DNA from: Bdellovibrionia bacterium
GTDB taxonomy: Bacteria; Bdellovibrionota; Bdellovibrionia; Bdellovibrionales; JAGQZY01
Length of the DNA: 64,000 bases
NCBI GenBank assembly: GCA_030424715.1
Contig: JAUHWH010000006.1
Coordinates: forward strand, 124,001-188,000
Reading direction: 5' to 3'
Below the pieces are notes generated by a model. The model was not told where the DNA came from, did no database searches, and saw only the letters and a program-made list of their open reading frames with translations. Position numbers and translations under genes: made by a program. Below are positions 18,002 to 34,753 of the stretch, one piece after another (within the stretch, counting starts at the first letter, position 1; every line of letters starts with the position of its first letter).

Positions 18002-19171
18002 ATGAAGTTGGCAGGTTTACTGGCTATTCAAATTTTGATTTTGTTCACGGGCTGCGCGGCAGAACAAGGAGACAGTTCTCCACGGGTCGATAGCGACCTT
18101 ATGTTGGTAGAGAGTGTCGTTGAGGATTACACCCTCAACACGGTCAACAGTTTTGTAGACAATGTTGACCAGCTCAACCAACAATCACAGTCAATGTGTC
18201 AGAATGCTGACAACGAAGTGAGCCTCGAAGATTTACGAGCGGCATGGGAGAAGGCCATGTCTTCTTTCCATCGCTCTGAAGTCCTTGTGTATTCACTGAA
18301 AGAGCTCATGCTTGAAGAAGACGCTCCGCTCGGTTTTATCTACACCCCTCTTCCGTCTTTGCGAGCAGCCAATAGCATTCGCAAAGAAATTGCGCTTATT
18401 GATGAGCAAGAGGGAAGTGAAAAAAAATACTCACTGCTCCGACCTCGGAGCCAGTTGCTTGGTCTCAACGCCTTGGAAGCTCTATTTTTTGAAATTTTAA
18501 AGGAGCAAGACGTTGTCGCTCCAGGTTCTGGTGATTGTGTTTACCTTACCTTTGTGACTGAAGACTTAATGGAGCGTGCTCAAAACTATCGAGAGCAGTG
18601 GCTTGTCGAAGAACTGGCGGCCGTGCAATCGACCAATGGGCGCACCAAGGTTCAAGCGACGATCAGACAGCTCACAACCCACATTATTTCTTATGTGGAC
18701 ACTCGTTTGAAAAACAAGAAAATTGCGATTCCGGTGGGTCTTAAACAATATGACGACTTAGCCGAAGCCAAAAAGGCTCGGCGCAAAGAGACGGTGGAGC
18801 ACCCCTATTTTCCCAACAAAAAGATCGCCCTCTTAGAGCCTCTTTTAGTTCTGGACCGCCTGTTCAATGCGGGTGGAGAAAAACAGGGTGCCTCTTCATT
18901 TTTTGGCTTTCGATCGTACCTAGAGAATCAGCGCAAAAACAAAGCTTTGTTTCAGAATGCAGACATTCTTGCTTTGCTGGCGATGGTCAAAGAACTGCCC
19001 GATGGGCCGGCCTACGAGGAGCTCTTCTCCAGTAGCGCTGATGCCGAGGTGGCACAACCGGTACTCGATATTTTTTCTAGAACTCAAAACTTTACGGAAT
19101 GGCTGAAGGTGGATTTTTTAGTGGAAATGCAGGCCAACCTTCCAAAAGCCGTACAAGGCGATAACGATTAA
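18002..19171 (+). CDS. Imelysin-like lipoprotein
   Basis: 389 residues. Signal peptide MKLAGLLAIQILILFTGC with lipobox FTGC. Central motif GLNALEALFF (residues about 158-167) fits the imelysin GxHxxE-type signature (usually GLHALE or GFHAIE), here with Asn in the His position; helical segments rich in Leu and Glu around it match the family's helical bundle. Imelysins are iron-regulated envelope proteins linked to iron handling. The next gene, a periplasmic iron-binding-type protein, starts 30 bases downstream and a possible Fur box lies upstream, which supports the assignment. Family membership is likely; metal binding by the Asn variant is uncertain. Confidence 0.7.
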   Translation: MKLAGLLAIQILILFTGCAAEQGDSSPRVDSDLMLVESVVEDYTLNTVNSFVDNVDQLNQQSQSMCQNADNEVSLEDLRAAWEKAMSSFHRSEVLVYSLKELMLEEDAPLGFIYTPLPSLRAANSIRKEIALIDEQEGSEKKYSLLRPRSQLLGLNALEALFFEILKEQDVVAPGSGDCVYLTFVTEDLMERAQNYREQWLVEELAAVQSTNGRTKVQATIRQLTTHIISYVDTRLKNKKIAIPVGLKQYDDLAEAKKARRKETVEHPYFPNKKIALLEPLLVLDRLFNAGGEKQGASSFFGFRSYLENQRKNKALFQNADILALLAMVKELPDGPAYEELFSSSADAEVAQPVLDIFSRTQNFTEWLKVDFLVEMQANLPKAVQGDND

Positions 19172-19201
19172 TTAACCTCAAAAGAAATTAAAGGAGAACC
19201 C

Positions 19202-20188
19202 ATGAAAATTTTCACACTCGTTGCTGTATTATTCGGTTTTAATCTGGCGCAAGCGCAACTCAGTCTTTACACAGACAGACCTGTTGAAACCATGCAGGTG
19301 ATCGCTGATGCTTATCAGAAAAAAACCGGAGTGACTGTAGACATCACCAGTTTCAGCTACACGGATCTCAAAAAGACCTTGGTGAATGAAGGCGCTGGTA
19401 GCCCTGCCGACATGGTGATTGTCAAAGATTTGGTTTATTTGACTGACCTAACAGACTCTCAGCTCCTGCAACCCTTAAACTCCCCCTTTGTAAAACAAAG
19501 CGTCGATCCTTCGATGCAGTCGCAGTACTGGACGGCGATCACTTTTAGAGCCAGAACTCTTGTTTATGACAAGGCTTACGATGTCAGTGGAATTAACAGC
19601 TATGCCGACCTCGCCGATCCGAACTACAGAGGTCAGCTTTGCCTCAGAACTTCTGTCTCGTCTTACAACGAGATCTTGGTGGCTTCTATGATTAACAGCT
19701 ATGGTGTCGATGAGACCTACGATATTCTTGACGGCTGGTTGAACAACCTTGCGGATTTTACCAAAATTCACACGAGCGATACGACAATCATTAAGGATAT
19801 TGCGCGACGAGACGGCACATGCACCCTCGGTATTACGAACTCTTACTACTTGGGCGCTCAGTTGCTTGAAAATCCAAACCTGCCCGTTGGCATCAAGTAT
19901 CTAAATCTTAAAGATGGTGGGGTTAGCACGAATGGAATTGGTGGGGCTATTGCGGCGAGTAGCAAAAATGCTGATTTAGCAAAAGACTTTATCGAGTTCA
20001 CCTTGTCGAAAGAGATGCAGGAGTATTTCTCAACATCCAATCAAGACTTTCCAGCGAACACCAATGTTTCGTTTCCACAAAACATTCAGGCATGGGAAGG
20101 ATTCGTTGTGAACCCTATTCATTGGGAGACTTTGTCTTCTGAAATCTCAACTGCGAGAGACCTGTTCGACGAACTCGACTATCAGTAG
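19202..20188 (+). CDS. Periplasmic iron(III)-binding-type protein (FbpA/FutA-like)
   Basis: 328 residues, solute-binding protein of the bacterial iron ABC-transporter class. Signal peptide MKIFTLVAVLFGFNLAQAQ, then LSLYTDRPVETMQVIADAYQ and GVTVDITSF, the usual two-domain start. The pair NSYYLG (residues about 220) is the tyrosine motif that binds iron in FbpA/FutA. GAASS and FIEFTLSKEMQEYF close the fold. ATP-binding and permease genes are not adjacent, so transport would need parts encoded elsewhere. AAGGAG lies just before the ATG and the gene follows the imelysin-like gene, so they are probably co-transcribed. Confidence 0.88.
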   Translation: MKIFTLVAVLFGFNLAQAQLSLYTDRPVETMQVIADAYQKKTGVTVDITSFSYTDLKKTLVNEGAGSPADMVIVKDLVYLTDLTDSQLLQPLNSPFVKQSVDPSMQSQYWTAITFRARTLVYDKAYDVSGINSYADLADPNYRGQLCLRTSVSSYNEILVASMINSYGVDETYDILDGWLNNLADFTKIHTSDTTIIKDIARRDGTCTLGITNSYYLGAQLLENPNLPVGIKYLNLKDGGVSTNGIGGAIAASSKNADLAKDFIEFTLSKEMQEYFSTSNQDFPANTNVSFPQNIQAWEGFVVNPIHWETLSSEISTARDLFDELDYQ

Positions 20189-20417: not shown

Positions 20418-20999
20418 TTAGGGAATTTTAACCAGAAAGCCAAAGCTAAGGCCCATTTGGCTGGTAGAGATCGTCGAAGACACACCGTAGGTGACAAAAC
20501 CATCAAACACCAAGCTGAGGTTTTTTGAGTAGGTGTAGTATGAGCCGCCATGGAGTGTGGTTCCTACCAGAGACGCCAGCACCACATCACTGTTTGCGGT
20601 GTTTTGGTTTTGCACCAAGCTCATTTGAATTCGACTCATGGTCAGTTCGAAGCCAATATAGGGGCTCCACTTGTAAGTTTGACCGATGGTGACGTTGGTT
20701 CCGACCTGCTCGGTTTTCGATTGATAGGGACGAAAATGATAGGCTCCACCCACTCCCAAGCCGAGCACATCACCGGTGATGGTGGTGGAAAAAGAGGTGA
20801 AGAGGCGCCAATTTTGCCCATAGTTAATTGAAAAATCAGCCGCCACCAAGCCTGAGCCCTGGGATTTGGTTTTGTAGATAGAACCACTGGCAGTGGTCGA
20901 AACGCCACCAATACGAAAGGTCATGGAACTGTCTGACCAAGCCATCGGCGTGGCAAAGAGAATCACAGAGGCGACAAGGTAGAGAATGCCCGCTTTCAC
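20418..20999 (-). CDS. Small outer-membrane barrel-like protein, last gene of the motor operon
   Basis: 193 residues. Signal peptide MKAGILYLVASVILFATPMA then WSDSSMT. The mature part consists of alternating strands with glycine-rich turns and ends in GLSFGFLVKIP, consistent with an eight-stranded-type barrel. The GTG start at 20997-20999 shares one base with the TAG stop of the upstream FliF-FliG-like gene (TAGTG), so the two are translationally coupled. This gives the operon a component that would sit in the outer membrane. No named family is recognised; the terminal strand lacks the usual final Phe. Confidence 0.7.
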   Translation of the reverse strand: MKAGILYLVASVILFATPMAWSDSSMTFRIGGVSTTASGSIYKTKSQGSGLVAADFSINYGQNWRLFTSFSTTITGDVLGLGVGGAYHFRPYQSKTEQVGTNVTIGQTYKWSPYIGFELTMSRIQMSLVQNQNTANSDVVLASLVGTTLHGGSYYTYSKNLSLVFDGFVTYGVSSTISTSQMGLSFGFLVKIP

Positions 21000-22756
21000 T
21001 ATGAAACCAGTTTGAAAGGTGCGATTGGTTGACGATTCAAATCAGAAAGCAGAATGAGTTTTTGTCCCACCAGGCGTTCGAAGAGTTGTAGCAATTCATT
21101 GCGAGCCTCTAGGACATCTGCTTTTTGGGGCGGATTGGGTCGCTGTCTTTCGTAAACAAAGATGTCTCGTGACGCTTTCGGAAGCATGTGGGTGACTTTT
21201 TCTTGAAAGTCTTTTGGACAGTCGGTCAGGGCGGAGGCCAAACGATCGGCCGGGAATTCACTGACTAGCAGCAAGAGAGATTTTGGTGATAGTTGATAGA
21301 GGTCATTAAAAAAGTAGACCTGAGATTGCACGATGTTGAATGTATCAGGGTCCGCATCTCTAATCGCATTAAAGACAGTCTCTTTGTGTAGAGGGTCTGT
21401 GATTGATTTGAGCGCAGACAAAACTGTTTTGGCCCTGTCATTTCGAGTGAAGATAAAGTTGTTGATCTCGGTGTAACGGGCGTAGAGTCTTTCAAAGGTT
21501 GCCGTTCGCAGACTCTCGGGCATCATATTCACTTTGCAGATCGCATTAAAATAGAGAGTTTGGTCATCCGGCGACAACTCTTTTACAAGATCTTGAATTC
21601 TGTGGGTTGGAATGACAAAACTGACGAGAGCCAAGGTTTCTGGGGGCTCGTCTGCCAAAATTTCGTGGAGCATGTCGTTCTCTAAAGTCTTAAGAAAGCT
21701 AGTATTGACTTCACTGGTTCTTGGTTCTGTTTTTTCCTGAGCAACCAATTTCAAGAGATCTTGCTTGGCTTTGATCAGGATGTGGAGATTTTCGTTATCT
21801 TCGAGGTCAAACCCTACGGCAATGTTATCGGATATTAGGTCTAGGTCCGAGGGTACCATTTTGGCCATTATCTTGTTGGTCGTTTTCATTTCGAAAATGG
21901 CTAGCACGGTTCCGGCATTGTACTGACCCGCACTGCCTTCTTGAATCCACGCGGTGAGTAGTGCGGCAAAGCGAGCCGGGTGAGTGTCCGCTTCTCCTTT
22001 TAGCTCAGTCATCAAGTCAAAAACAGCGTCTTTGCTGCCGAAGATCGAGCGAGCTGATTTGGATGTTTTACTTCCGTCGTTGCTATTTTCATCGTCCTCT
22101 TCTTTCGAACGAAGGGGAGCCGTTGGTGGTGAAGGTTGACTGGCCACCTGTGAAGCCGCCTTGGCTGCCGTTTTCGCTGAAAAGAGGGCGAATGTCCCAT
22201 GCAGAACAATGAGGCCTGCCAAGGCGCAGATCAAACCAATAAAAAGAGACAGGAGCTCCTTTTTGTATTTCATGAATGTATCCATAAATGTCTTTTCAGG
22301 TTTTTCAGGCGGCGCAATTTTGTTGAGAGGTCCCACCTTTAGAGAAAAGAGATCACCCTCTGCTTGTTTGATGCGAGCGATTTGAGGCAAGACCTTTTTG
22401 AAAAAAGAGACCCGCTTTTTATCTACGTTTTTACTAATTACGACACTGACTTTGATCTCGGGTCGTTTGATGCGGTTGTGGGTTTGGTTGTCGATATCGA
22501 AAGAATAGGTTCTGAAGTCGGCATAGTCCTGAGACAACCCTGGGATACCCGGAAAGTCGAGGCGAGATTTCTCGGCAGGGATGAGTGTGCTCTGGTCGTC
22601 TTTTGGAATTTCAGTGACGAAGACCATAAAGTCATCATCGTTCAAATAGGTTTGAAGAAAGTTTTTGACCCGCACTTCTGTTTCGTCAAGTGGGCCGGAC
22701 CAACTCAGAGCGGGGGTTAAAGTGATTAGAAAGAGGGCGATCAGAAAATTTCTCAG
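20999..22756 (-). CDS. FliF-FliG-like fusion rotor protein
   Basis: 585 residues from a CTG start at 22756, which overlaps the MotB-like stop by four bases (CTGA) with GGGAGG upstream. This start adds a Sec signal peptide (RNFLIALFLITLTPALSW). Residues 20-165 resemble the C-terminal part of the MS-ring protein FliF: FPGIPGLSQDY, IKVSVVISKNVDKKRVSFF and EGDLFSLKVGPLNK. A membrane helix (about 168-193) leads to a charged linker and a cytoplasmic FliG-like domain: EILADEPPETLALVSFVI matches the FliG EHPQ region, and VFNAIRDADPDTFNIV, LLLLVSEFPADRLASAL and EARNELLQLFERLVGQ match the middle and C-terminal FliG motifs. FliF's N-terminal ring domains are absent. A GTG at 22675 is an alternative but would remove the signal peptide. 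Confidence 0.82.
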   Translation of the reverse strand: MRNFLIALFLITLTPALSWSGPLDETEVRVKNFLQTYLNDDDFMVFVTEIPKDDQSTLIPAEKSRLDFPGIPGLSQDYADFRTYSFDIDNQTHNRIKRPEIKVSVVISKNVDKKRVSFFKKVLPQIARIKQAEGDLFSLKVGPLNKIAPPEKPEKTFMDTFMKYKKELLSLFIGLICALAGLIVLHGTFALFSAKTAAKAASQVASQPSPPTAPLRSKEEDDENSNDGSKTSKSARSIFGSKDAVFDLMTELKGEADTHPARFAALLTAWIQEGSAGQYNAGTVLAIFEMKTTNKIMAKMVPSDLDLISDNIAVGFDLEDNENLHILIKAKQDLLKLVAQEKTEPRTSEVNTSFLKTLENDMLHEILADEPPETLALVSFVIPTHRIQDLVKELSPDDQTLYFNAICKVNMMPESLRTATFERLYARYTEINNFIFTRNDRAKTVLSALKSITDPLHKETVFNAIRDADPDTFNIVQSQVYFFNDLYQLSPKSLLLLVSEFPADRLASALTDCPKDFQEKVTHMLPKASRDIFVYERQRPNPPQKADVLEARNELLQLFERLVGQKLILLSDLNRQPIAPFKLVS

Positions 22757-23400
22757 GGCACCCTCCCTTTACCAATTTGAATGACAACGCGACGGTTTTC
22801 ATCAAGTTTCTTTGAAATGGGTTGCGTGTCAGAGTAGCCAATGGCTCGCATTCTTTTTGTAGGGATCTTTTGAGTGGCTAGGTACCTAACGACGCTTCCG
22901 GCACGAGCGGCTGAGAGCTCCCAGTTTGAAGGGTAACGCGACCCACTGACGACGGGGCGACTGTCGGCATGTCCAGAAACATCAATCCTGTAATGATTGG
23001 GGATTTTCTTTAGTAGAGTCGCTATTTGTTGTAAGCTTTGTTCCGCTTCGGTTGTTAACTGACTTGAGAGGGTTTCAAAAAACAATCCACCTTGAAAAAT
23101 AAGACTGACACCCTCATGATTGGCTTCGATGGCAATGTTGTTTGCTAAATCTAGGTTTTCAATGGATTGGGAGATGGTGTTCGCGAAGTCGGGCATGTTC
23201 GGAGCGATCACCTCTTGACCAATCATTTTGGCAAAGGAGTGTTTTATTTTCGAGTATTTCTCCTGATCTTGTTGGGCAAAGACGAACAAAAGAATAAAGA
23301 AGGCCAGTAGATTCGTCACCAGATCAGCATAAGAATAAAGCCAGACTTCATTCTCTTTCTTTAGTAATAATGAAACTTTATTCTGTCCGAACTTACGCAA
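22753..23400 (-). CDS. MotB-like stator protein
   Basis: 215 residues from a TTG at 23400, which has GAGGGGA eight bases upstream and overlaps the MotA-like stop by eight bases; a longer frame to 23448 would overlap by 56. Residues 20-40 (SYADLVTNLLAFFILLFVF) are the membrane helix, with Asp26 in the place of the proton/ion-binding Asp32 of MotB. After a plug and linker, the C-terminal OmpA-like domain binds peptidoglycan: IDVSGHADSRPV, NWELSAARAGSVVRYLAT, IGYSDTQPI, NRRVVIQI. In flagella MotB forms the A5B2 stator with MotA. The gene sits in the middle of the five-gene motor operon. Confidence 0.9.
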   Translation of the reverse strand: MRKFGQNKVSLLLKKENEVWLYSYADLVTNLLAFFILLFVFAQQDQEKYSKIKHSFAKMIGQEVIAPNMPDFANTISQSIENLDLANNIAIEANHEGVSLIFQGGLFFETLSSQLTTEAEQSLQQIATLLKKIPNHYRIDVSGHADSRPVVSGSRYPSNWELSAARAGSVVRYLATQKIPTKRMRAIGYSDTQPISKKLDENRRVVIQIGKGRVP

Positions 23401-24235
23401 CTTTCTGATCCCCTCCTGAGAAGGCTCGATTCTCGTTGTTAGAGACAAGTTGCTCTAAAACGGCTTGTTCCCTTTTATTGAGGTAAGATTTAAGAGTCTC
23501 TCGAATCTGAACGGGGTGACGGTTCTCGTGAACCATACTTAGACCTTCATTAATAATCTGCCCGCGTAGGATGGATTCATGGGCCATATGGCCGAGATAT
23601 TCCGCCCAGGGGTAGAAAATCATATTCGCCAGCGTTACTCCGTAGAGTGTTGAACACAGCGCAATCGCCATCGCGGGTCCGACACCATCCATATTGCTTG
23701 CATCTTTGCCAATTTCATTGAGCAGAAGAATCATTCCTAAGAGTGTTCCCACAAGACCGAAGGCCGGGGCTAATTTCGAGAGTGTGATTAAGAATCCGGC
23801 CTCTTTGCTCAGGTCGGTTTCGTGATTCTCAATGCGTAGCTCCGTGCAGCGACGAATGTCTTCGGGATTCAAGCCAATGCTCATCATCTCAATGGAGTCT
23901 TGTAATATTTCATCGTTATATTGGGTGTCTTCGATAATGTAGCCAGCGTATTTTTTTTGTGAAAAGTCGATAAACTCGGCAATGGTATCAATAGCCCGGA
24001 CACGCTTTCCGTAAATAGATAGAGTGAGGCGTTTTACCAAGGCGACAGTCACTGAAAAGGGCTGCATGATCAACGTGCAGGTAAATATGGCACCAAAAAC
24101 AATAATAAGACCGATTAGGTTAAGAAAAGCCATAGGGTGAGAGGTGGAGAGCGCCACGGTTGTCGACACAACCACAATAGCTCCGATAAAGCCTAAGATC
24201 ATGGTGATGTTAAAGTGTTTCTTCGTCTTCTTCAT
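23393..24235 (-). CDS. MotA-like stator protein
   Basis: 280 residues with four membrane helices (residues about 12-30, 36-58, 149-174 and 183-209). The last two contain the conserved prolines (LAPAFGLVGTLLGMI near Pro157, GPAMAIALCSTLYGV near Pro187) of flagellar MotA, and the cytoplasmic loop has DSIEMMSIGLNPEDIRRCTE, matching the MotA loop that touches FliG. This is nearer to MotA than to ExbB or TolQ, which have three helices. Starts six bases after the upstream lipoprotein gene and overlaps the MotB-like gene; part of the motor operon. Confidence 0.9.
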   Translation of the reverse strand: MKKTKKHFNITMILGFIGAIVVVSTTVALSTSHPMAFLNLIGLIIVFGAIFTCTLIMQPFSVTVALVKRLTLSIYGKRVRAIDTIAEFIDFSQKKYAGYIIEDTQYNDEILQDSIEMMSIGLNPEDIRRCTELRIENHETDLSKEAGFLITLSKLAPAFGLVGTLLGMILLLNEIGKDASNMDGVGPAMAIALCSTLYGVTLANMIFYPWAEYLGHMAHESILRGQIINEGLSMVHENRHPVQIRETLKSYLNKREQAVLEQLVSNNENRAFSGGDQKVA

Positions 24236-24241
24236 AAGGCT

Positions 24242-24826
24242 CTACTCAAGGTTGATGTTTTTATCAGCTAAAAATTTTGTCAGTTCATGGTTCTTTGGGT
24301 CTAAGGTTAATGCCTTTTTCCAAGACTCAATGGCCGATTGCATTTCGTTCATCAAATAATAGGAAGTACCCTTCATAATATGGGCCTGTGTCACCCATGG
24401 TTTTTCTTCGAGGATTCTATCGAGCTCGAGAATGGCGGTTTTATATTGCTTTTGATAAATCAATTTTTGGGTTCGAAAAAGTTGGCCGACCAAGCCGTTG
24501 ATGGTTGAGCTGGCATCGCTCAGGCCATTCGGGTTGACCTCCATATTGACGTTCACCGTGGTTAGTATCTCGTCAGTCGGCGCAATAGGAACCGAGGTGG
24601 GGAGGTAACCTTGTTTTTCAAATACCACTAAAAAAGCTTTTTTAGAATCCAAAGAAGACTTTGAGTACTCTAAGGGTGAAGAGCCCAAAAGAAACTTTTT
24701 GTTTGTTTGTGGATCGCGAAAATAGATCGAGGCTCCATCGGGATTTGATGAAAAGACATAGCGTCCCGTCGAGCAACCCGAAACAAAAAATAAAATTACG
24801 GCGATAAAAATTACTGAGCACTTCAT
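24242..24826 (-). CDS. PEGA/TPR lipoprotein, first gene of the motor operon
   Basis: 194 residues. MKCSVIFIAVILFFVSGC is a lipoprotein signal with lipobox VSGC. Then a PEGA-type surface domain (YVFSSNPDGASIYFRD, VVFEKQGYLPTSVPI) and, from about residue 120, two or three tetratricopeptide helices (AILELDRILEEKPWVTQAHI, GTSYYLMNEMQSAIESW, KALTLDPKNHEL). PEGA domains are common in envelope motor or cell-wall-linked proteins. GAGAG lies before the ATG. It is followed after six bases by the MotA-like gene, so it most likely works as an outer-membrane or cell-wall-facing partner of the motor. Confidence 0.82.
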   Translation of the reverse strand: MKCSVIFIAVILFFVSGCSTGRYVFSSNPDGASIYFRDPQTNKKFLLGSSPLEYSKSSLDSKKAFLVVFEKQGYLPTSVPIAPTDEILTTVNVNMEVNPNGLSDASSTINGLVGQLFRTQKLIYQKQYKTAILELDRILEEKPWVTQAHIMKGTSYYLMNEMQSAIESWKKALTLDPKNHELTKFLADKNINLE

Positions 24827-24951: not shown

Positions 24952-27900
24952 CTAGTTGGAGATATTGTCAATAATGCTAAATCCCGAAGAGTTACCGGCT
25001 GAACTATTGGTAAGAATTTCGGGAAGCAAGTCATTGGTCAAGTCGTGTACTGATATCTGAATATTCCAGTTGGAGCCGGGAGTTGGTGATGAATAACTGA
25101 GACCAGTAGGTGTGAAGTTTCCACTACCGTTGCCCAGTAAAATTTGGGTTCCCGAGTAGTTTTTGGTCATAAGGATATCAAGGTCACCATCCCGATTCAT
25201 ATCCGCAATATCCGAAGAGGGGAGGTTAAATGCGGTGGCATAACGGGCCACTCCTCCGTTGGTCGTCACTGCGGAGATAGAGCCAGCGGCGCCTCCTGTG
25301 ACGATGCTCACGTTCCCATTATTTGACGATGACAACACGTAGTCGTAAACGTTATCACCACTTAATTCTCCGTAACTCAAGCTGGTGACGGTTCCACCAA
25401 TTGAAGTTGAAGCTGTTGAAGGGGCATTAAAGGTCAAGTCTCCATTGCCCCTAAAAATCTGCAGTTGGGCGTTGTTTGTGGCCGTAATTATGTCATCGTG
25501 GCCATCTTGATCGACGTCGAGACTCAAAAGATCTTGGACATAGCTGCTGACGGCACTAATAATAGTAGGGGATGCCGTTATAAAGGATCCATCGCCTCGG
25601 CCCCGAAAAATATAAACTTGGCTTCCTATTCCCGCGTTGCAACCTACGGCGAAAGCGAGATCTCTATTTCCATCGCCATTATAGTCACCCGAGGCGACAC
25701 CGAACGAGCCCGATGTTCCGGTGCAGCCACTGGTGTTGGTTGTAAAACTAATTAAGCTCGAGAAAGTCCCATCGCCATTACCAAGAGTCACAGATCCGGT
25801 TCCGGTTCCACCACTGTTAAAATTGGCACTCACATAGTCTAAATTGCCATCACCATTGAAGTCATCCAGAAGGTGCGGGTGGCTCGCTGGCCAGTAGGCT
25901 CCGATGTCACCGGTAGGTATGGTTGCAGCGTTCAGGTTGTACGCGCCAGTGGAGGAGCCAAAAAGAATACTGGAGGCTCCACCAATTTTGTTTATGATAT
26001 CGCGGTAGCCGTCCTTATTGATGTCGGCCACCAAAGGTTTACCATATGCTGGCACAGGGTCAGCCGGCAAATTGATGTAATATGCGGGGCCGGACTTGTA
26101 GGCCACTGAGGTGTGGGTGTTTCTTAAGACCTCAAGACGAGACCAACTGACCCACCAGCCGGCACCCGCGGCCAGTGCCGGGCGTGTGTCGCCTGTGATA
26201 AGGTTTCCGAATGCGATTCCCCTTGGGTAGTACCCTACAGAGAGCTGTCGGTTGGCAGTAAAGCCTCCGGTCCCATTGTTTAAAAACACGCCAATGTTGT
26301 TGTAGTGCCCACCGGCCATGGTCATACCGATGTCGATGTCGCCATCTCCATCTACGTCAGCAGCATCTAGAAAGTGAGGCGATCCTTGAAATCCGGCCGA
26401 GGATGTGGAGTATGCGGAGACTCCTGAAAAATTACCGGCGCCATCGCCAGTCATGACAACAAAAGTGCGCTCATTGTAGTTGGCGGCAACGACATCGAGG
26501 TTGCCATCACCGGTGACGTCCGCAAGGACACCATCGAAGGGGCGACCAAGGCAATCCGTAGAAGATTGCAGTGAAAAGGTTCCGTTACCCGCGCCAAGAA
26601 AAACATCGACTCTTCGGCTGTCATAGCGAATCGAGGCAAGGTCCGTATTGCCATCACCATTGATATCACCGACATCGAGTCCATAGGTGTCAGCAGATGC
26701 CAATGTGGCTGCAACGTGATAATTGGTAATGGCCAGGCCAGTATTGCTACACGCCTGAGCGCCGTTGCCATTGTAGGCGACGGTTGTTCCGCCGGATCCA
26801 CAGTTGATAAGGATTTGCACGTATTCGGCGCCATATGCCGACACCGCGATGTCGGGCAGAGCGTCTCCATTGAAATTGCCCAGCTGAATGTCTCTGACGG
26901 TACCACCCACAGCAATCACCTGGGTTGAGACGGCACCCGTCCAATTGTTATCACCTTTAAAAATCGTCAGGTTGGCGTTGTCTAAATTGGCACTGATAAT
27001 GTCTTTCATACCATCATTGTCGATGTCACCAATGGCGATTCCGTAAGGCGTAAAGCCGCCGGTACTGTGGACGTACGGTAAGAAATTTCCTGTGCCGTCA
27101 CCGATAAAGACGATCACCGCCAGAGAGCGTTCTCCAGCATAGACAATGTCATTGATTCCGTCATTGTTCATATCGGCTATTTTGACTTCGTAAGGATAAG
27201 GGGCTCCCGACCCGACTGAAGAAGTCACAAAGGCACTATTGATCGGCGCTTGCATGCGAGTGTTGGTCATCCCCGCAGATACCACGGTCAAAGTTTTGGT
27301 CTTAACGTCCGAAAAACCACGAGCATCCGTCACGGTGAGGCTGACCGGGTAGGTACCGGCGGTGCCGGCTCCAGCGGTGCCACTTATGTAGCCGGAAGAG
27401 GTATTGATGCTCAATCCCACAGGCAGTCCCGTTGCAGCATAAGTCAACGGACGCACGCCACCACGCACTTTGACATGATCGAGGTAGTTTTTTGACTGAC
27501 CCGCCACTCGAAAAACATCTTCAGTATCTAAGACAATTTTGGGTGGGATACTCACGGCGATGGTCAAGGCTTGTGTGTCGGACTGTCCGAGACTGTCTTG
27601 CACCCGGACGGTAAAGGCGTTGGGCGAGTTGAGCACATTGGCCCCTGCTGTTGGAGTGCCAGTGATGGTGCCATTAGTGTTAAGGGTCAAACCCGTCGGC
27701 AGGTTTCCCGACGCGAGTGAATAAGTGTATGGCGTCACCCCACTGGTCGAATTGATAGATTGAGTGTATGGAATGCCCACACCAGCGCCACCTAAAGAGG
27801 TGGTGGTGATATCGGGGGCCTGATTCACATTGAAGGTGAAAGGCTTCGATACTGTGAGGCCGACATTGTCTCGTACAGTGATTGTCACAGAGGAGCTTGA

Positions 27901-28473
27901 GGTGATGGAAGAAATACCGCTAATAATGCCGGTTGTGGATCCAATGAAAAAACCCGTGGGGAGGCCGGATGCCGAATAGGTGTACGGCGGCGTTCCGCCT
28001 GTCACAGCGATTCCTTGGGCGTAGCTGACATTCACCAGGGCGGTTACTAAAGAGGTGGTCGTAATAATCAGAGCGTCACTGATGGGAATTTGATAGGCCT
28101 GCTCCACTTGAGTGCCGTCGGCATCTGTTACCAGAGCCGTAAAGTTGTATGACCCCGTGGCTGACGGAGAAACGACACCATCGATAACGCCCGTGTCTTG
28201 GTTAAGACTCAGGCCCGGAGGAAGTCCGCCAGACTTAATGGAAAACGAATAGGGTTGCTTTCCGCCATCGGCCACAATTTGTGCAGAGTATGAGAGGCCT
28301 TTGATTCCCGGGGTTAGAGTTAAGGTTTCAATGTTGAGAGACTCAAAAACGCGATTCTCAGCCAATTCATCCACTTTGGTGCAACCCACAGCCAATGTGA
28401 CAGTTAACACAAGGTGTAATAAAAATTTGAGTTTTCTATTTATCACGTTCAATCTCACTTTTGCAAAAGGCAT
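24952..28473 (-). CDS. Giant lipoprotein with Ig-like domains and FG-GAP/VCBS repeats
   Basis: 1173 residues from the ATG at 28473 (AAGG seven bases upstream; the open frame continues to 28590). Lipobox TLAVGC follows a basic N-terminus. Residues about 55-410 hold four Ig/cadherin-like 'putative Ig' repeats, each with PPYTYSASGLPTG-type stretches. The rest holds about 13 FG-GAP/VCBS units with Asp/Asn/Gly calcium-type loops (DMNNDGINDI, DINGDGNTDL, DVDGDGDIDI and others), as in beta-propellers of integrin alpha chains. Such proteins are surface adhesins or binding scaffolds. It lies 125 bases upstream of the motor operon on the same strand and is divergent from the next gene, so a shared promoter region (28474-28604) is likely. 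Confidence 0.85.
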   Translation of the reverse strand: MPFAKVRLNVINRKLKFLLHLVLTVTLAVGCTKVDELAENRVFESLNIETLTLTPGIKGLSYSAQIVADGGKQPYSFSIKSGGLPPGLSLNQDTGVIDGVVSPSATGSYNFTALVTDADGTQVEQAYQIPISDALIITTTSLVTALVNVSYAQGIAVTGGTPPYTYSASGLPTGFFIGSTTGIISGISSITSSSSVTITVRDNVGLTVSKPFTFNVNQAPDITTTSLGGAGVGIPYTQSINSTSGVTPYTYSLASGNLPTGLTLNTNGTITGTPTAGANVLNSPNAFTVRVQDSLGQSDTQALTIAVSIPPKIVLDTEDVFRVAGQSKNYLDHVKVRGGVRPLTYAATGLPVGLSINTSSGYISGTAGAGTAGTYPVSLTVTDARGFSDVKTKTLTVVSAGMTNTRMQAPINSAFVTSSVGSGAPYPYEVKIADMNNDGINDIVYAGERSLAVIVFIGDGTGNFLPYVHSTGGFTPYGIAIGDIDNDGMKDIISANLDNANLTIFKGDNNWTGAVSTQVIAVGGTVRDIQLGNFNGDALPDIAVSAYGAEYVQILINCGSGGTTVAYNGNGAQACSNTGLAITNYHVAATLASADTYGLDVGDINGDGNTDLASIRYDSRRVDVFLGAGNGTFSLQSSTDCLGRPFDGVLADVTGDGNLDVVAANYNERTFVVMTGDGAGNFSGVSAYSTSSAGFQGSPHFLDAADVDGDGDIDIGMTMAGGHYNNIGVFLNNGTGGFTANRQLSVGYYPRGIAFGNLITGDTRPALAAGAGWWVSWSRLEVLRNTHTSVAYKSGPAYYINLPADPVPAYGKPLVADINKDGYRDIINKIGGASSILFGSSTGAYNLNAATIPTGDIGAYWPASHPHLLDDFNGDGNLDYVSANFNSGGTGTGSVTLGNGDGTFSSLISFTTNTSGCTGTSGSFGVASGDYNGDGNRDLAFAVGCNAGIGSQVYIFRGRGDGSFITASPTIISAVSSYVQDLLSLDVDQDGHDDIITATNNAQLQIFRGNGDLTFNAPSTASTSIGGTVTSLSYGELSGDNVYDYVLSSSNNGNVSIVTGGAAGSISAVTTNGGVARYATAFNLPSSDIADMNRDGDLDILMTKNYSGTQILLGNGSGNFTPTGLSYSSPTPGSNWNIQISVHDLTNDLLPEILTNSSAGNSSGFSIIDNISN

Positions 28474-28604
28474 CAAAGACCTTATAAGAGGTTTCGGATG
28501 ATTCTTTAGCGATATTAAGGGATATAGTGAGAAATCTCTGTTTAAGACGAAATGATTTTGATACAGTTTTTTTGTAAAAATAAAAACCAAAAGAGTGTCT
28601 TATT

Positions 28605-30878: not shown

Positions 30879-33392
30879 CTAGAAGTGCTCCTTAGTAAAA
30901 TTGTAGGTGCTGAAAACAATTTGCCGTATCGTGTTTAGGAACGTCTGTTTGTCTGTAATACCCATTTGATCAGCCTGTTTGGGGAGTTCAAATTCGAGGC
31001 CGGTTGAAGCCATGGAGTGATGGTCCCAGCGTTGCCAAAATAAACAGTCATGGTCTGCCACAGACGAAAAATCGTACGTGGTGATCTGCGATTCTCGAAA
31101 GCCACCGCTCATGGTCATAATATCTTTATTGGCAGATCCAGAAACCGCTGCTGGAGCGCTGTTGTCTTTCTCTGAAAAAATCGCACCGGTGATGTCATTG
31201 CAGGTGTCACTGTCGGCTCTCATGACTCCGTCGACAGAGAGAGATTTTAAGTGAAAGGTGGCTCCTAGCAGAGGGTGACTCTGTTGGTGTCGCCTTTGGT
31301 CTTCACTAATTGCGGCGACCACATGGTCGGGCCTGTGGTAGGCTTTGGTTGGTATACCCAGACTTGCCAGCTCCGGCACAAAAAGGTTGTTTGGTACTTG
31401 TACCCCCATTTCCGGTTGATAGCGTAGCACGCCCGATGCGTCGAAGAGGTAGCTTCCGGATTCGTCTTTGGGGTAGCCGAGAAGGGACTCAACGAGAACA
31501 TAGATGTCCACCTTGTTTTGTTCCTTCGCAAACTTTAAAGCATCAATGATTTGGGGGTCATACAAAAACTGGTCATCAATTAAAATCTGGTGTTTCGCTC
31601 CCAAAATCAGTTGGATGTTCTGTTCAATAGCGGACATTTCGGTGCCGTAGATATTATTCTGTGCCATGGCAATAACGGAATCCCCAATGGGTTCGTAGTC
31701 GATGAGAACAGCTCCCGTGGTTCGATTGAGAACATCAATAGGTGTAAGCAACTTCTTTATAGACGCGATCGTCGGGGCGTCATCTCCAAATTTTCGAGAG
31801 ATATGATTTTTCACCATCTCACCACCGAGCAATGGGTCAGTGTCGAGGACAAAGGCCTCATAGACGTCATAGTAGAATGAATCAAGGATGATGGCTGTGG
31901 CGGGGCCCTGCACTTCGGCGACTTGGTCGCGATTCACTCCTCCCGAGGAGTCCGTCCAGTTTTTTGATCCCACAAAGGCTCGCCCACCCGTGGGCTGTTT
32001 GCCATCCACAATTAAAACCTTGGAGTGATCGGACTTTGCTAGAAGATGAAAACCGTCGCTCTCCAGCAGAGTTTTCACGTTGTTGTTGGCACTCAAATCT
32101 TCAACCACATTTTTGGTGATCAAAAGATCAGCAAACTCAGGAAGAGCTGTTCTTTTTAGATTGATCTGAGTTGGAGTGATGTAAAAGTTTTTGTTAGAAA
32201 ACTTCTCTGCAAAGGCACGCATGTAGCGATAGACCATGTCGAGTTGGTGGCCGTACTGAAACTTGTTTTCGTTATCTGTGATGACGATGACGGTAAAATC
32301 GGGATCTTCAATGACTTTCTTGAAAAGCTCCTTTGCCAGGTTCATGCCGATGGATCCACCCATCCAAAAAATATCCACAAAGACGGACTCTTCGGCTTCC
32401 CTTATGGCCTGTAACATCGTGGCGTATGTGCCAAGGATGTCGCCTCCAATGGGGCCGAGCACGGAGTCTGAGAAGTGACTCATATTTTTACTTTCATGGG
32501 TGTTACGAAATCCTTCAGCAGTCGTAAAGAGTTCTGTTAGAGCGGCTTCGGGAGTGTCCATTAAAAGCTTAAAGTCCTCAATGGTGAGATCTTTGTACTT
32601 TTTCTCGAGCCCTGGGGCTTGCGCGCTCAGCATGAGATGCAGCTGATCGCCGAGGTCGAGAATGGCTCGAGGTTTGTCGGGCAATAGATTGTGAAGGGTC
32701 ACCTTGTTACCGCCGACGAAGCCAGAAAAAGAGACTGGAAAGGGCGCTCCGTGGTATTTATGCTCCATAAAAAGAGTTTGCAGTTTTTCATTCAGTTGAT
32801 TCACTAGCGGGTCAGGATTGACACAGTCTTTGAAGGCTTGCACGACGGCAAAAGATCTTTTGATGTCAAAACTACGAGTCGTCACCCCTGACCGCTGTAG
32901 GGAGAGGGCAAAGCACTGTTCAATACCCTTAATTTGCTTGCGAGCCAGAGCATAAGGCCAATGCTTTTTCGACAAATCAGCAATAGCATTGGGGTTCCAA
33001 GCTTGGGCTTGTGGATCGAGAATGGTGTTGTCGATCAACGTATGGGCGCTGATGAGGTAAAGCCCCAGTGTTTGGGCCGCCTGCTGCCGTTGGCCGGTGA
33101 GGGCATAGTAATAAAGGAGCTGCCGATAGCTCTTGCCCAAAATTTTTGACTGCATGATAGTATTGGTGGCTTGGTAATATCGAGTGTTGCTCTTATCTTT
33201 CGTGAAGAGTCGGTACCAGGAGGTCAGAGACTCAAAGTTGTTGATGTCGGTCAGGCGTTCATAGATAGACCGATAGCTGCGGTGAAGGTCTTCTTGTCGT
33301 AAAAGAATGTCATTATAATGATGTTGGGTCGAACTCGCAGCATCGGCACTAAAGTGAACAACAGTTAGTAGGGTGAGAAAGAGTTTTTTCAT
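30879..33392 (-). CDS. Secreted phospholipase-D-like protein with two HKD motifs
   Basis: 837 residues. Signal peptide MKKLFLTLLTVVHFSADA then ASSTQHH. Two HxKxxxxD motifs are intact: His456-Lys458-Asp463 (DHSKVLIVDG, followed by FVGSKNW) and His714-Lys716-Asp721 (FHLKSLSVDG, followed by SGSANKD). The PLD superfamily cleaves or transfers phosphodiesters, for example in phospholipids or nucleic acids; cardiolipin-synthase-type enzymes have two motifs in one chain, as here. The 300-residue N-terminal part is helical and not recognised. The start overlaps the upstream gene by four bases (ATGA). Likely periplasmic or secreted; the substrate is not deducible. Confidence 0.85.
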   Translation of the reverse strand: MKKLFLTLLTVVHFSADAASSTQHHYNDILLRQEDLHRSYRSIYERLTDINNFESLTSWYRLFTKDKSNTRYYQATNTIMQSKILGKSYRQLLYYYALTGQRQQAAQTLGLYLISAHTLIDNTILDPQAQAWNPNAIADLSKKHWPYALARKQIKGIEQCFALSLQRSGVTTRSFDIKRSFAVVQAFKDCVNPDPLVNQLNEKLQTLFMEHKYHGAPFPVSFSGFVGGNKVTLHNLLPDKPRAILDLGDQLHLMLSAQAPGLEKKYKDLTIEDFKLLMDTPEAALTELFTTAEGFRNTHESKNMSHFSDSVLGPIGGDILGTYATMLQAIREAEESVFVDIFWMGGSIGMNLAKELFKKVIEDPDFTVIVITDNENKFQYGHQLDMVYRYMRAFAEKFSNKNFYITPTQINLKRTALPEFADLLITKNVVEDLSANNNVKTLLESDGFHLLAKSDHSKVLIVDGKQPTGGRAFVGSKNWTDSSGGVNRDQVAEVQGPATAIILDSFYYDVYEAFVLDTDPLLGGEMVKNHISRKFGDDAPTIASIKKLLTPIDVLNRTTGAVLIDYEPIGDSVIAMAQNNIYGTEMSAIEQNIQLILGAKHQILIDDQFLYDPQIIDALKFAKEQNKVDIYVLVESLLGYPKDESGSYLFDASGVLRYQPEMGVQVPNNLFVPELASLGIPTKAYHRPDHVVAAISEDQRRHQQSHPLLGATFHLKSLSVDGVMRADSDTCNDITGAIFSEKDNSAPAAVSGSANKDIMTMSGGFRESQITTYDFSSVADHDCLFWQRWDHHSMASTGLEFELPKQADQMGITDKQTFLNTIRQIVFSTYNFTKEHF

Positions 33393-34753
33393 GGTGTGCC
33401 CCCAACTTCGGTTCCTAGGGCTTGGTTAAGAAGAGTCAAAAATTGCTTTTGCACCTCGGGCTTGAGCAGGGTGTAAACCAGCCCTTGGGTTTCGAGACTT
33501 GTTTTAATATTTTCAACTTGTTTTTGATAGGGCTCCAATTGTTTATTGGCAGCTGCAACAAATTGGTCATTCACTGCCTGTTGTTCAATTGTGGGCAATC
33601 GCAATACCGACCACGATAGAAACTCAGGCTTTCGCTCAAACTCGGTAAGAACTCGGATATCAGAAATTTTAAGTGTGGCGAGATCCAGCGAAACCTCATG
33701 GATGTTCATTTTAATATTGTACTCACGGGCCAACCACCAATCGAGGGCGCCGATCCCTAGGGGTGCTAGGATTTCACCCCACAGGTGAGGCGTGTTGTAG
33801 CGGGCCATGTACGAGTTAATCGTGATGCCATCGATTTCAAGGAGAGGGTTCTCGAAAGGTGATCGTGTGAGGTCCCAGTTTTCACCTTTTACAAGTCCCA
33901 AGCTACCAAATTTAATATTGAGGGTGAGGGGCTGACTGGCGCTTTGCTGATAAGAGGCCGTGATGATCACTCCCGGATGGCTGGAGTACTGCTGCGACAG
34001 CCATTTGAGTTTTGGGCGCCGGGGCATGCGAATTTTTTTGAAATGAGCTTCCTTTTCTTTCTGGTCGAAGTCGAATTCGGTATCCGTGGGGAGACCTCCG
34101 AGGAGCTGGACATTGATCGTGCTTTCAGGTCCTGCGAAATTAATTTGTACTAACAAGCCTACAAAGAAAGGCTCGTTGCGATTCAGTTGGACGTAGTTGT
34201 TTTCGTAGGAAAACTGTATGGCCTGCAGCACTCGTTCGTTGATGAGTTCAGAATAACTCTGTTCGGGGCGAAAACCCCATTGGGAGTTATCCACCACCGG
34301 AGCCTTCTGGAGAGAATAAAAACGCTTAAAGGGCAAGACGGCGTCTTGGGTTTTAGCCGTAGGCACCTTCGGAAGAATGAAGGCGAGAAATTGCGATTCT
34401 TTATCAACGTGCTGAAAAGACTCTTCGGTTTGAGCGGCTATAAGTTCGGTGAGTATATCTTGAAAGGGAAAGGCTTGGGCCAACTCGAGCAGGTTGTAGC
34501 CATTTTGAAAGCTCTCGCCACTGAGTAGGGCACTCAGTCGGTCGGCAATCAACTGTGATGCTAGGTTTTTGTTCTGTTGAACCCGAGACTTTAACTTGGT
34601 CTCTTCAATATCTTTCAGAGACATACTGAGGTTGAGGCCTTCTGGTAGGGCTTCGACGACCATGAGTTCGTACTCGGAAATGGGGTATGAGCCATAGACA
34701 GAGGAAAACCAGAAGGTGACGAAAAGGAAGGGAAATATCATGTGATAGCGCAT
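33389..34753 (-). CDS. Exported partner protein of the PLD-like enzyme, unknown family
   Basis: 454 residues. The N-terminus RYHMIFPFLFVTFWFSSVYG is a signal peptide. The remainder is soluble, mixed helix and strand, with long Leu/Gln-rich segments (QLIADRLSALLSGESFQNGY) and a hydrophobic stretch near residue 330 (HLWGEILAPLGIGALDWWLA). I recognise no domain. Its TGA stop overlaps the PLD start (ATGA), so the two are translated together, which suggests an accessory or inhibitor role. An ATG at 34741 in the same frame is an alternative start. Confidence 0.65.
   Translation of the reverse strand: MRYHMIFPFLFVTFWFSSVYGSYPISEYELMVVEALPEGLNLSMSLKDIEETKLKSRVQQNKNLASQLIADRLSALLSGESFQNGYNLLELAQAFPFQDILTELIAAQTEESFQHVDKESQFLAFILPKVPTAKTQDAVLPFKRFYSLQKAPVVDNSQWGFRPEQSYSELINERVLQAIQFSYENNYVQLNRNEPFFVGLLVQINFAGPESTINVQLLGGLPTDTEFDFDQKEKEAHFKKIRMPRRPKLKWLSQQYSSHPGVIITASYQQSASQPLTLNIKFGSLGLVKGENWDLTRSPFENPLLEIDGITINSYMARYNTPHLWGEILAPLGIGALDWWLAREYNIKMNIHEVSLDLATLKISDIRVLTEFERKPEFLSWSVLRLPTIEQQAVNDQFVAAANKQLEPYQKQVENIKTSLETQGLVYTLLKPEVQKQFLTLLNQALGTEVGGTP

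Follow-up and report, generated by a model that had tools for sequence, protein, structure and literature searches.

A FliF-FliG fusion with its own MotAB-type stator in a Bdellovibrionota operon: a candidate non-flagellar envelope machine

The DNA analysed here is a 64-kb window (the whole stretch that was read) on contig C18 of a Bdellovibrionia genome. On its minus strand, at 20418-24826, it contains five genes which encode, in order of transcription, a TPR/PEGA lipoprotein, a MotA-like and a MotB-like stator subunit, a FliF-FliG fusion and an outer-membrane protein (OMP), hereafter called the module. A preliminary description made from the sequence had given these five genes as lying on one strand, overlapping or nearly touching, and this arrangement holds at these positions; its inventory overlooked a giant lipoprotein gene at 24952-28590 and a second copy of the operon. 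The lipoprotein gene (24242-24826) is separated by 6 bases from the MotA gene (23393-24235), whose stop codon falls within the start region of the MotB gene (22753-23400, with a likely TTG start at 23400 behind AGGAGG). The fusion gene (20999-22756) most likely begins with a CTG at 22756 that overlaps the MotB stop (CTGA) and gives the product a signal peptide; no ATG, GTG or TTG is found upstream of the signal peptide. The fusion stop, in turn, overlaps the GTG start of the OMP gene (20418-20999) at 20999. Such start/stop overlaps between neighbouring genes are typical of a single operon.

The MotA-like and MotB-like identities given in the preliminary description are upheld by family matches, to Pfam MotA_ExbB (E=8.6e-24) and, as best NCBIfam model, PomA (E=1.5e-31) for the former, and to Pfam MotB_plug (E=1.9e-14) and OmpA (E=2.7e-19) for the latter. 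MotB carries an OmpA-type peptidoglycan-binding domain and a proton-site Asp, within SYAD in the window, that is present in all 32 module MotB sequences listed. In a tree, the module MotA groups with flagellar MotA in a 100/100 split from Tol/Exb (ExbB/TolQ)-like proteins, which agrees with the contrast to ExbBD/TolQR drawn earlier and led us to reject identity with a Ton/Tol energiser. Judged by sequence, MotA and MotB are a flagellar-type stator with an ion-site Asp and a peptidoglycan anchor. For the two outer components the earlier assignments stood in part. The lipoprotein (lipobox VSGC) matches TPR_1 (E=1.1e-7), and its PEGA-like domain is weak (Pfam E=0.13, and 0.004 in the paralogue). 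The small beta-barrel-type OMP is homologous to the OMPs of other module copies; it has no significant Pfam match in the window, and the assignment is better supported by its paralogue, which matches OMP_b-brl at 1.3e-5.

The fusion comprises a signal peptide, a FliF RBM3-like periplasmic domain (approximately 22322-22690), a single transmembrane helix (TM) equivalent to FliF TM2 (approximately 22193-22267), the FliF C-terminal FliG-binding motif THPARFAALLTAWIQEGS (21932-21985), which aligns with NDPRVVALVIRQWINNDH of E. coli FliF, and a FliG-like region with N, M and C domains (approximately 21053-21931; Pfam FliG_C, E=1.8e-13). The FliF half has no Pfam match and was seen by profile-profile comparison. 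A profile of 22 homologues, numbered here by the residues of homologue L048, was compared by hhalign with canonical FliG and with a FliF reference made of the E. coli and same-phylum proteins. The match to FliG extends over 277 columns (Prob 98.7, E=1.9e-16), FliG residues 7-314 mapping to fusion residues 272-555. The match to FliF (Prob 92.1, E=6.4e-7) covers the second half of RBM3, TM2 and the FliG-binding C-tail and corresponds to fusion residues 103-271; the first half of RBM3 gave a separate hit to FliF that was not significant (E=0.24). Since the FliF match ends at residue 271 and the FliG match begins at residue 272, the join sits at the natural end of FliF and start of FliG. These profile matches bear out the FliF-FliG fusion of the preliminary description, which had been made to depend on finding a FliG/FliF relationship, and by these alignments we take the fusion to be genuine.

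Only RBM3, TM2 and the C-tail of FliF align with the fusion, which lacks TM1, RBM1 and RBM2 and has a signal peptide in the place of TM1, and a full FliF MS-ring protein (TM1, RBM1-3, TM2) is not present at the locus. In low-confidence models the RBM3 region follows an alpha-beta-(insert)-beta-alpha-beta order. Most group A fusions keep K/R at the position of FliG R281 and D at that of D289, while D288 is not kept. The FliM-binding EHPQR motif of FliG is not kept, being replaced by DEPPE in the window and by ESAKN and similar sequences in relatives.

Relatives were searched in 369 genomes of the phylum. A single-sequence genome scan found no relative of the fusion, because the family is only about 20% identical, whereas alignment-based searches recovered full-length relatives in several families. 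The preliminary description had proposed looking for this gene order across the phylum, and the search also showed a second copy in the same genome (L051, 8492-13146) with the order lipoprotein, MotA, MotB, fusion and OMP. A model of the N-terminal part of the fusion, with neither canonical FliF nor canonical FliG among its listed hits, matched 29 of the 369 genomes in 10 genera (27 strongly and 2 weakly); a divergent subfamily of homologues comes in addition to these. The full-length model matched 319 of the 369, most of them over the FliG part only, as canonical FliG does, which indicates that most genomes have a flagellar-type FliG without the module. Of 37 independent fusion loci, about 31 also carry MotA and MotB, and 2 more have both just beyond the first stretch; a homologue of the TPR lipoprotein adjoins nearly every fusion relative, and most homologous loci hold MotA, MotB, lipoprotein and OMP together. 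In another family, L129 repeats the five-gene order with a very divergent fusion (Prob 94.7 to group A by hhalign). Chance open reading frames (ORFs) are ruled out by the conservation of the genes across the phylum, and contamination or an assembly artefact by the second copy and by the same module in complete genomes.

The module has extra members in some genomes, which may be a further OMP, a paralogue consisting of RBM3 only, or a HEAT-labelled, VWA or SpoIIE/HAMP protein. An RBM3-like protein without FliG is encoded directly upstream of the fusion at L130 17350-18522, L093 7717-8745 and L082 10854-12359 (genus g140, G319); in G319 a HEAT-labelled gene separates it from the fusion. This RBM3-only protein is perhaps a second ring component. 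At L113 (7480-9729), a variant fusion of 749 amino acids, with an enlarged and apparently duplicated periplasmic part, adjoins MotA and MotB. In addition, a stand-alone soluble FliG_C-like protein of 153 amino acids is encoded at L050 9364-9825 (G000, contig C8; Pfam E=2.4e-5), adjoining genes for apparent GHKL ATPase-like and STAS-like proteins, and similar FliG_C-like frames of 146-179 amino acids occur in G341, G355, G269 and G048.

The preliminary description had stated that no hook, rod, filament or export gene is near. No flagellar gene was recognised on reading through the larger ORFs of the window, and neither in these 64 kb nor at the relatives' loci were export apparatus, rod, hook, filament or FliM/FliN recognised. 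The flagellar FliG, FliF and FlhA of the window genome are encoded on contig C17, and the module on C18. In the complete genome G133, FlhA (3.236 Mb) and FliG (3.314 Mb) are encoded apart from the module (2.913-2.920 Mb). Membership in an ordinary flagellar cluster, named beforehand as the finding that would speak against a separate machine, was thus not found, the module being on another contig here and more than 0.29 Mb away in G133.

The giant lipoprotein gene at 24952-28590 precedes the operon by 125 bases and has the same orientation. Its product (lipobox LAVGC) has four He_PIG Ig-like domains and FG-GAP beta-propeller repeats (Pfam FG-GAP_3, E=1.8e-61; He_PIG, E=2.6e-39). It is the sole FG-GAP_3 protein found in the window genome, and the sole NHL protein found there is the giant lipoprotein directly downstream of the second operon copy. 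Giant lipoproteins recur within or beside the module in relatives. Two RCC1-repeat proteins stand beside it at L129, and in G133 a run of three long same-strand ORFs, one with FN3 and FG-GAP repeats, lies upstream of MotA. To judge from these domain matches, a beta-propeller fold theme is kept while the protein family changes. In other genomes FG-GAP proteins sometimes occur elsewhere too, so that the link between lipoprotein and module is strongest in the window genome. We propose that the giant lipoprotein could be a surface client or adhesin of the motor, and the TPR lipoprotein an outer-membrane or periplasmic coupling part. In the Bdellovibrio-type version at L133 (1917-3326 and 4539-16053) and L104 (7173-8924), genes for a VWA protein and giant lipoproteins precede MotA in the same orientation, and the fusion gene is faced by a convergent SpoIIE/HAMP phosphatase-like gene.

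The close association with giant lipoproteins that vary in sequence but have a beta-propeller theme in common would also be expected of an outer-membrane energiser or secretion machine with Ton/Tol or type IX logic, in which the motor would export, flip or assemble these proteins and not move the cell. The TPR lipoprotein and the beta-barrel OMP do resemble an assembly or translocation complex, and the VWA protein of the Bdellovibrio version is in line with this. However, the module MotA falls outside the ExbB/TolQ type, such a machine would have no need of a FliG rotor, and inspection of the loci, which included no systematic search for these features, showed neither a TonB/TolA-like arm nor a large export pore. 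We regard this explanation as unlikely.

That MotAB acts on the fusion as a stator acts on a rotor is, in our opinion, likely. With somewhat less assurance, we favour the reading that the module is a dedicated non-flagellar, ion-driven rotary envelope machine with a surface output. It is argued for by the FliG and FliF homologies meeting at one junction, the flagellar-type MotA together with the ion-site Asp of MotB, the R281 and D289 positions kept in most group A members, the gene order shared by the second copy and the distant L129, the linkage of both stator genes to the fusion, the FG-GAP_3 and NHL proteins adjoining the two copies, the RCC1 propellers at L129, the giant lipoproteins in or beside the module in G133 and others, and the many phylum genomes that have canonical FliG and no module. 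Only tentatively do we go further and suggest that a flagellar rotor and stator without an exporter move giant beta-propeller lipoproteins at the surface, powering surface movement, attachment or prey handling. The weights given to these three statements are a matter of judgement and not of calculation.

In such a machine, RBM3, TM2 and the FliG-binding tail of FliF, joined to a complete FliG, would make up a one-piece rotor subunit, for which the locus holds no switch-complex partner. RBM3 would oligomerise to form a ring in the inner membrane, and this ring would be driven by the stator via FliG_C. As the FliM-binding motif has not been retained, a single direction of rotation is probable. 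The ring could then move or work the outer-membrane complex of lipoprotein and OMP and the surface beta-propeller lipoproteins, with surface attachment, gliding-like motion or prey contact as the output. Within genus g7, to which G133 belongs, the module is patchy, and thus it is not the universal gliding or predation motor.

Several points weigh against a separate surface machine. The ring, its rotation, the transfer of force to the outer membrane and the surface role are all inferred. The torque helix of the window fusion keeps the acid at 289, but its basic residues are shifted and it does not follow the pattern of group A; in the L051-type subfamily, most of the FliG sequence signature is gone. 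The structure models are poor (pLDDT 42 and 53, from two-row alignments) and are given no weight here, and in a Foldseek search with the RBM3 model the top-ranking EscJ and FliF were not significant (E>0.1). FlhA is present in 33 of the 34 module genomes, so that the module is additional to the flagellum, and its being a replacement for a lost flagellum is rejected. Going by the title of a 2011 study by Morehouse, cited in PMC11323537, three MotAB pairs of B. bacteriovorus, MotAB2 included, reportedly contribute to flagellar motility. Finally, B. bacteriovorus gliding is usually assigned to other Agl/Glt-type clusters (PMC3169522, PMC12546842); as this holds for HD100, gliding is only one possible output of the module.

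The Bdellovibrio pairs are relevant because in G133 the MotA tree places three proteins on the flagellar side, encoded at 0.129, 2.919 and 3.172 Mb, which match motA1, motA2 (bd3021) and motA3 (bd3254) in position. By this match, the stator of the Bdellovibrio module copy is probably the published MotAB2 (Bd3021/Bd3020). The module could then be a flagellum accessory, in which MotAB would supply additional stators and an added periplasmic or outer-membrane ring, built from the fusion, lipoprotein and OMP, would surround the flagellar motor, as three pairs serving one flagellum, the near-constant presence of FlhA and the flagellar type of the module MotA would suggest. It is difficult to reconcile this with a module that has its own FliF-FliG, lies far from the flagellar genes, is accompanied by giant surface lipoproteins and is absent from most phylum genomes with canonical FliG. 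Moreover, two-hybrid tests showed no interaction of FliL-Bd1076 with MotA2 or MotB2, and the other motA genes did not make up for a lost motA3 (PMC11323537). An accessory role therefore seems improbable to us. If the reading of surface movement holds, the Bdellovibrio MotAB2, published as a "flagellar stator", would be part of a separate surface machine, and MotAB2 knock-outs would need to be reinterpreted.

With the core of the flagellar motor the module shares homologous stator and rotor parts, the order of FliF C-tail to FliG, the ion-site Asp and a peptidoglycan-binding MotB. It differs in that its FliF lacks TM1, RBM1 and RBM2 and forms one protein with FliG, and in that FliM/FliN, export gate, rod, hook and filament are missing, with outer-membrane and giant lipoprotein partners instead. 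In the Chlamydiaceae, too, a shortened FliF is naturally fused to FliG, and the setting is again non-flagellar (Bergeron 2016, PMC4768692). However, that fusion keeps RBM2 and both TMs, has no RBM3-like domain and only the middle domain of FliG, and is injectisome-linked (PMC4768692), whereas the module fusion has RBM3 and FliG N-M-C, with a dedicated MotAB.

In the gliding/sporulation motor Agl-Glt of Myxococcus, an ion-driven inner-membrane motor is likewise linked, through the periplasm, with TPR lipoproteins and OMPs. Its stator belongs to the ExbB/TolQ-like class (PMC12505986), unlike the flagellar-class MotA of the module, and it has no FliG/FliF rotor. The module was not found to be of the AglRQS type, as the ExbB/TolQ-like MotA relatives of the window genome and of G133, among which Agl-type proteins would be expected, split from the module MotA in a tree that held no named AglRQS reference; of the Glt proteins, only a weak TPR match to GltE (E=0.09) was obtained at the locus. 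In Bacteroidota type IX secretion and gliding (GldLM-GldKN-SprB), similarly, an ion-driven motor acts on a ring in the periplasm and outer membrane and on giant adhesins at the surface, but the ring and adhesin families are other ones, and according to a review GldLM is not homologous to MotAB (PMC13104615). Injectisomes, too, derive from part of the flagellum, and the module would be their mirror image: they kept the exporter and dropped the motor, while here the motor is kept and the exporter dropped.

Zorya systems have a MotAB-like inner-membrane complex outside the flagellum, and a Zorya-like defence or other signalling device, with the MotAB-like channel as an envelope sensor, was considered since MotB matches ZorB models (E=1.6e-17). 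Those models are, however, themselves MotB-like. Among the ten proteins scanned, only MotB matched ZorB models, with no convincing match to ZorC, ZorD, nuclease or helicase models and none to ZorE, and on this ground Zorya identity was rejected. The module has no effector, its conserved partners are envelope proteins, and it has a FliG rotor and outer-membrane partners, so that we consider a device of this kind very improbable. The earlier contrast with Zorya is thus sustained at the gene level, with no ZorC/D-like neighbour, even though MotB resembles ZorB.

For FliG/FliF outside flagella, the literature gave only the Chlamydia FliF-FliG fusion and related work on type III secretion and sporulation, subscription papers and preprints being mostly outside the search. 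The literature searched gave no account of a FliG rotor that has a dedicated stator and stands apart from the flagellum, and an earlier description elsewhere is possible. We take the module to be new as a system: its parts have known relatives, yet every known kind tested fails a defining feature. If our reading is true, it would represent a further exaptation of flagellar parts in this phylum, the reverse of the injectisome, which is a flagellar exporter without a motor. This has implications for the evolutionary assembly of the flagellum and would offer a compact setting in which torque transfer can be studied without a switch.

Other genes of the window deserve brief mention. Beside the operon, on the plus strand (18002-20188), an imelysin-like protein is followed by an extracellular solute-binding protein; the two resemble a metal-uptake pair and are probably unrelated to the module. 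Further along, a predicted-exported protein of 454 amino acids with no Pfam family (33389-34753) lies just upstream, on the same strand, of a secreted protein of 837 amino acids with a PLD-like domain (30879-33392; Pfam PLDc_2, E=9.7e-10).

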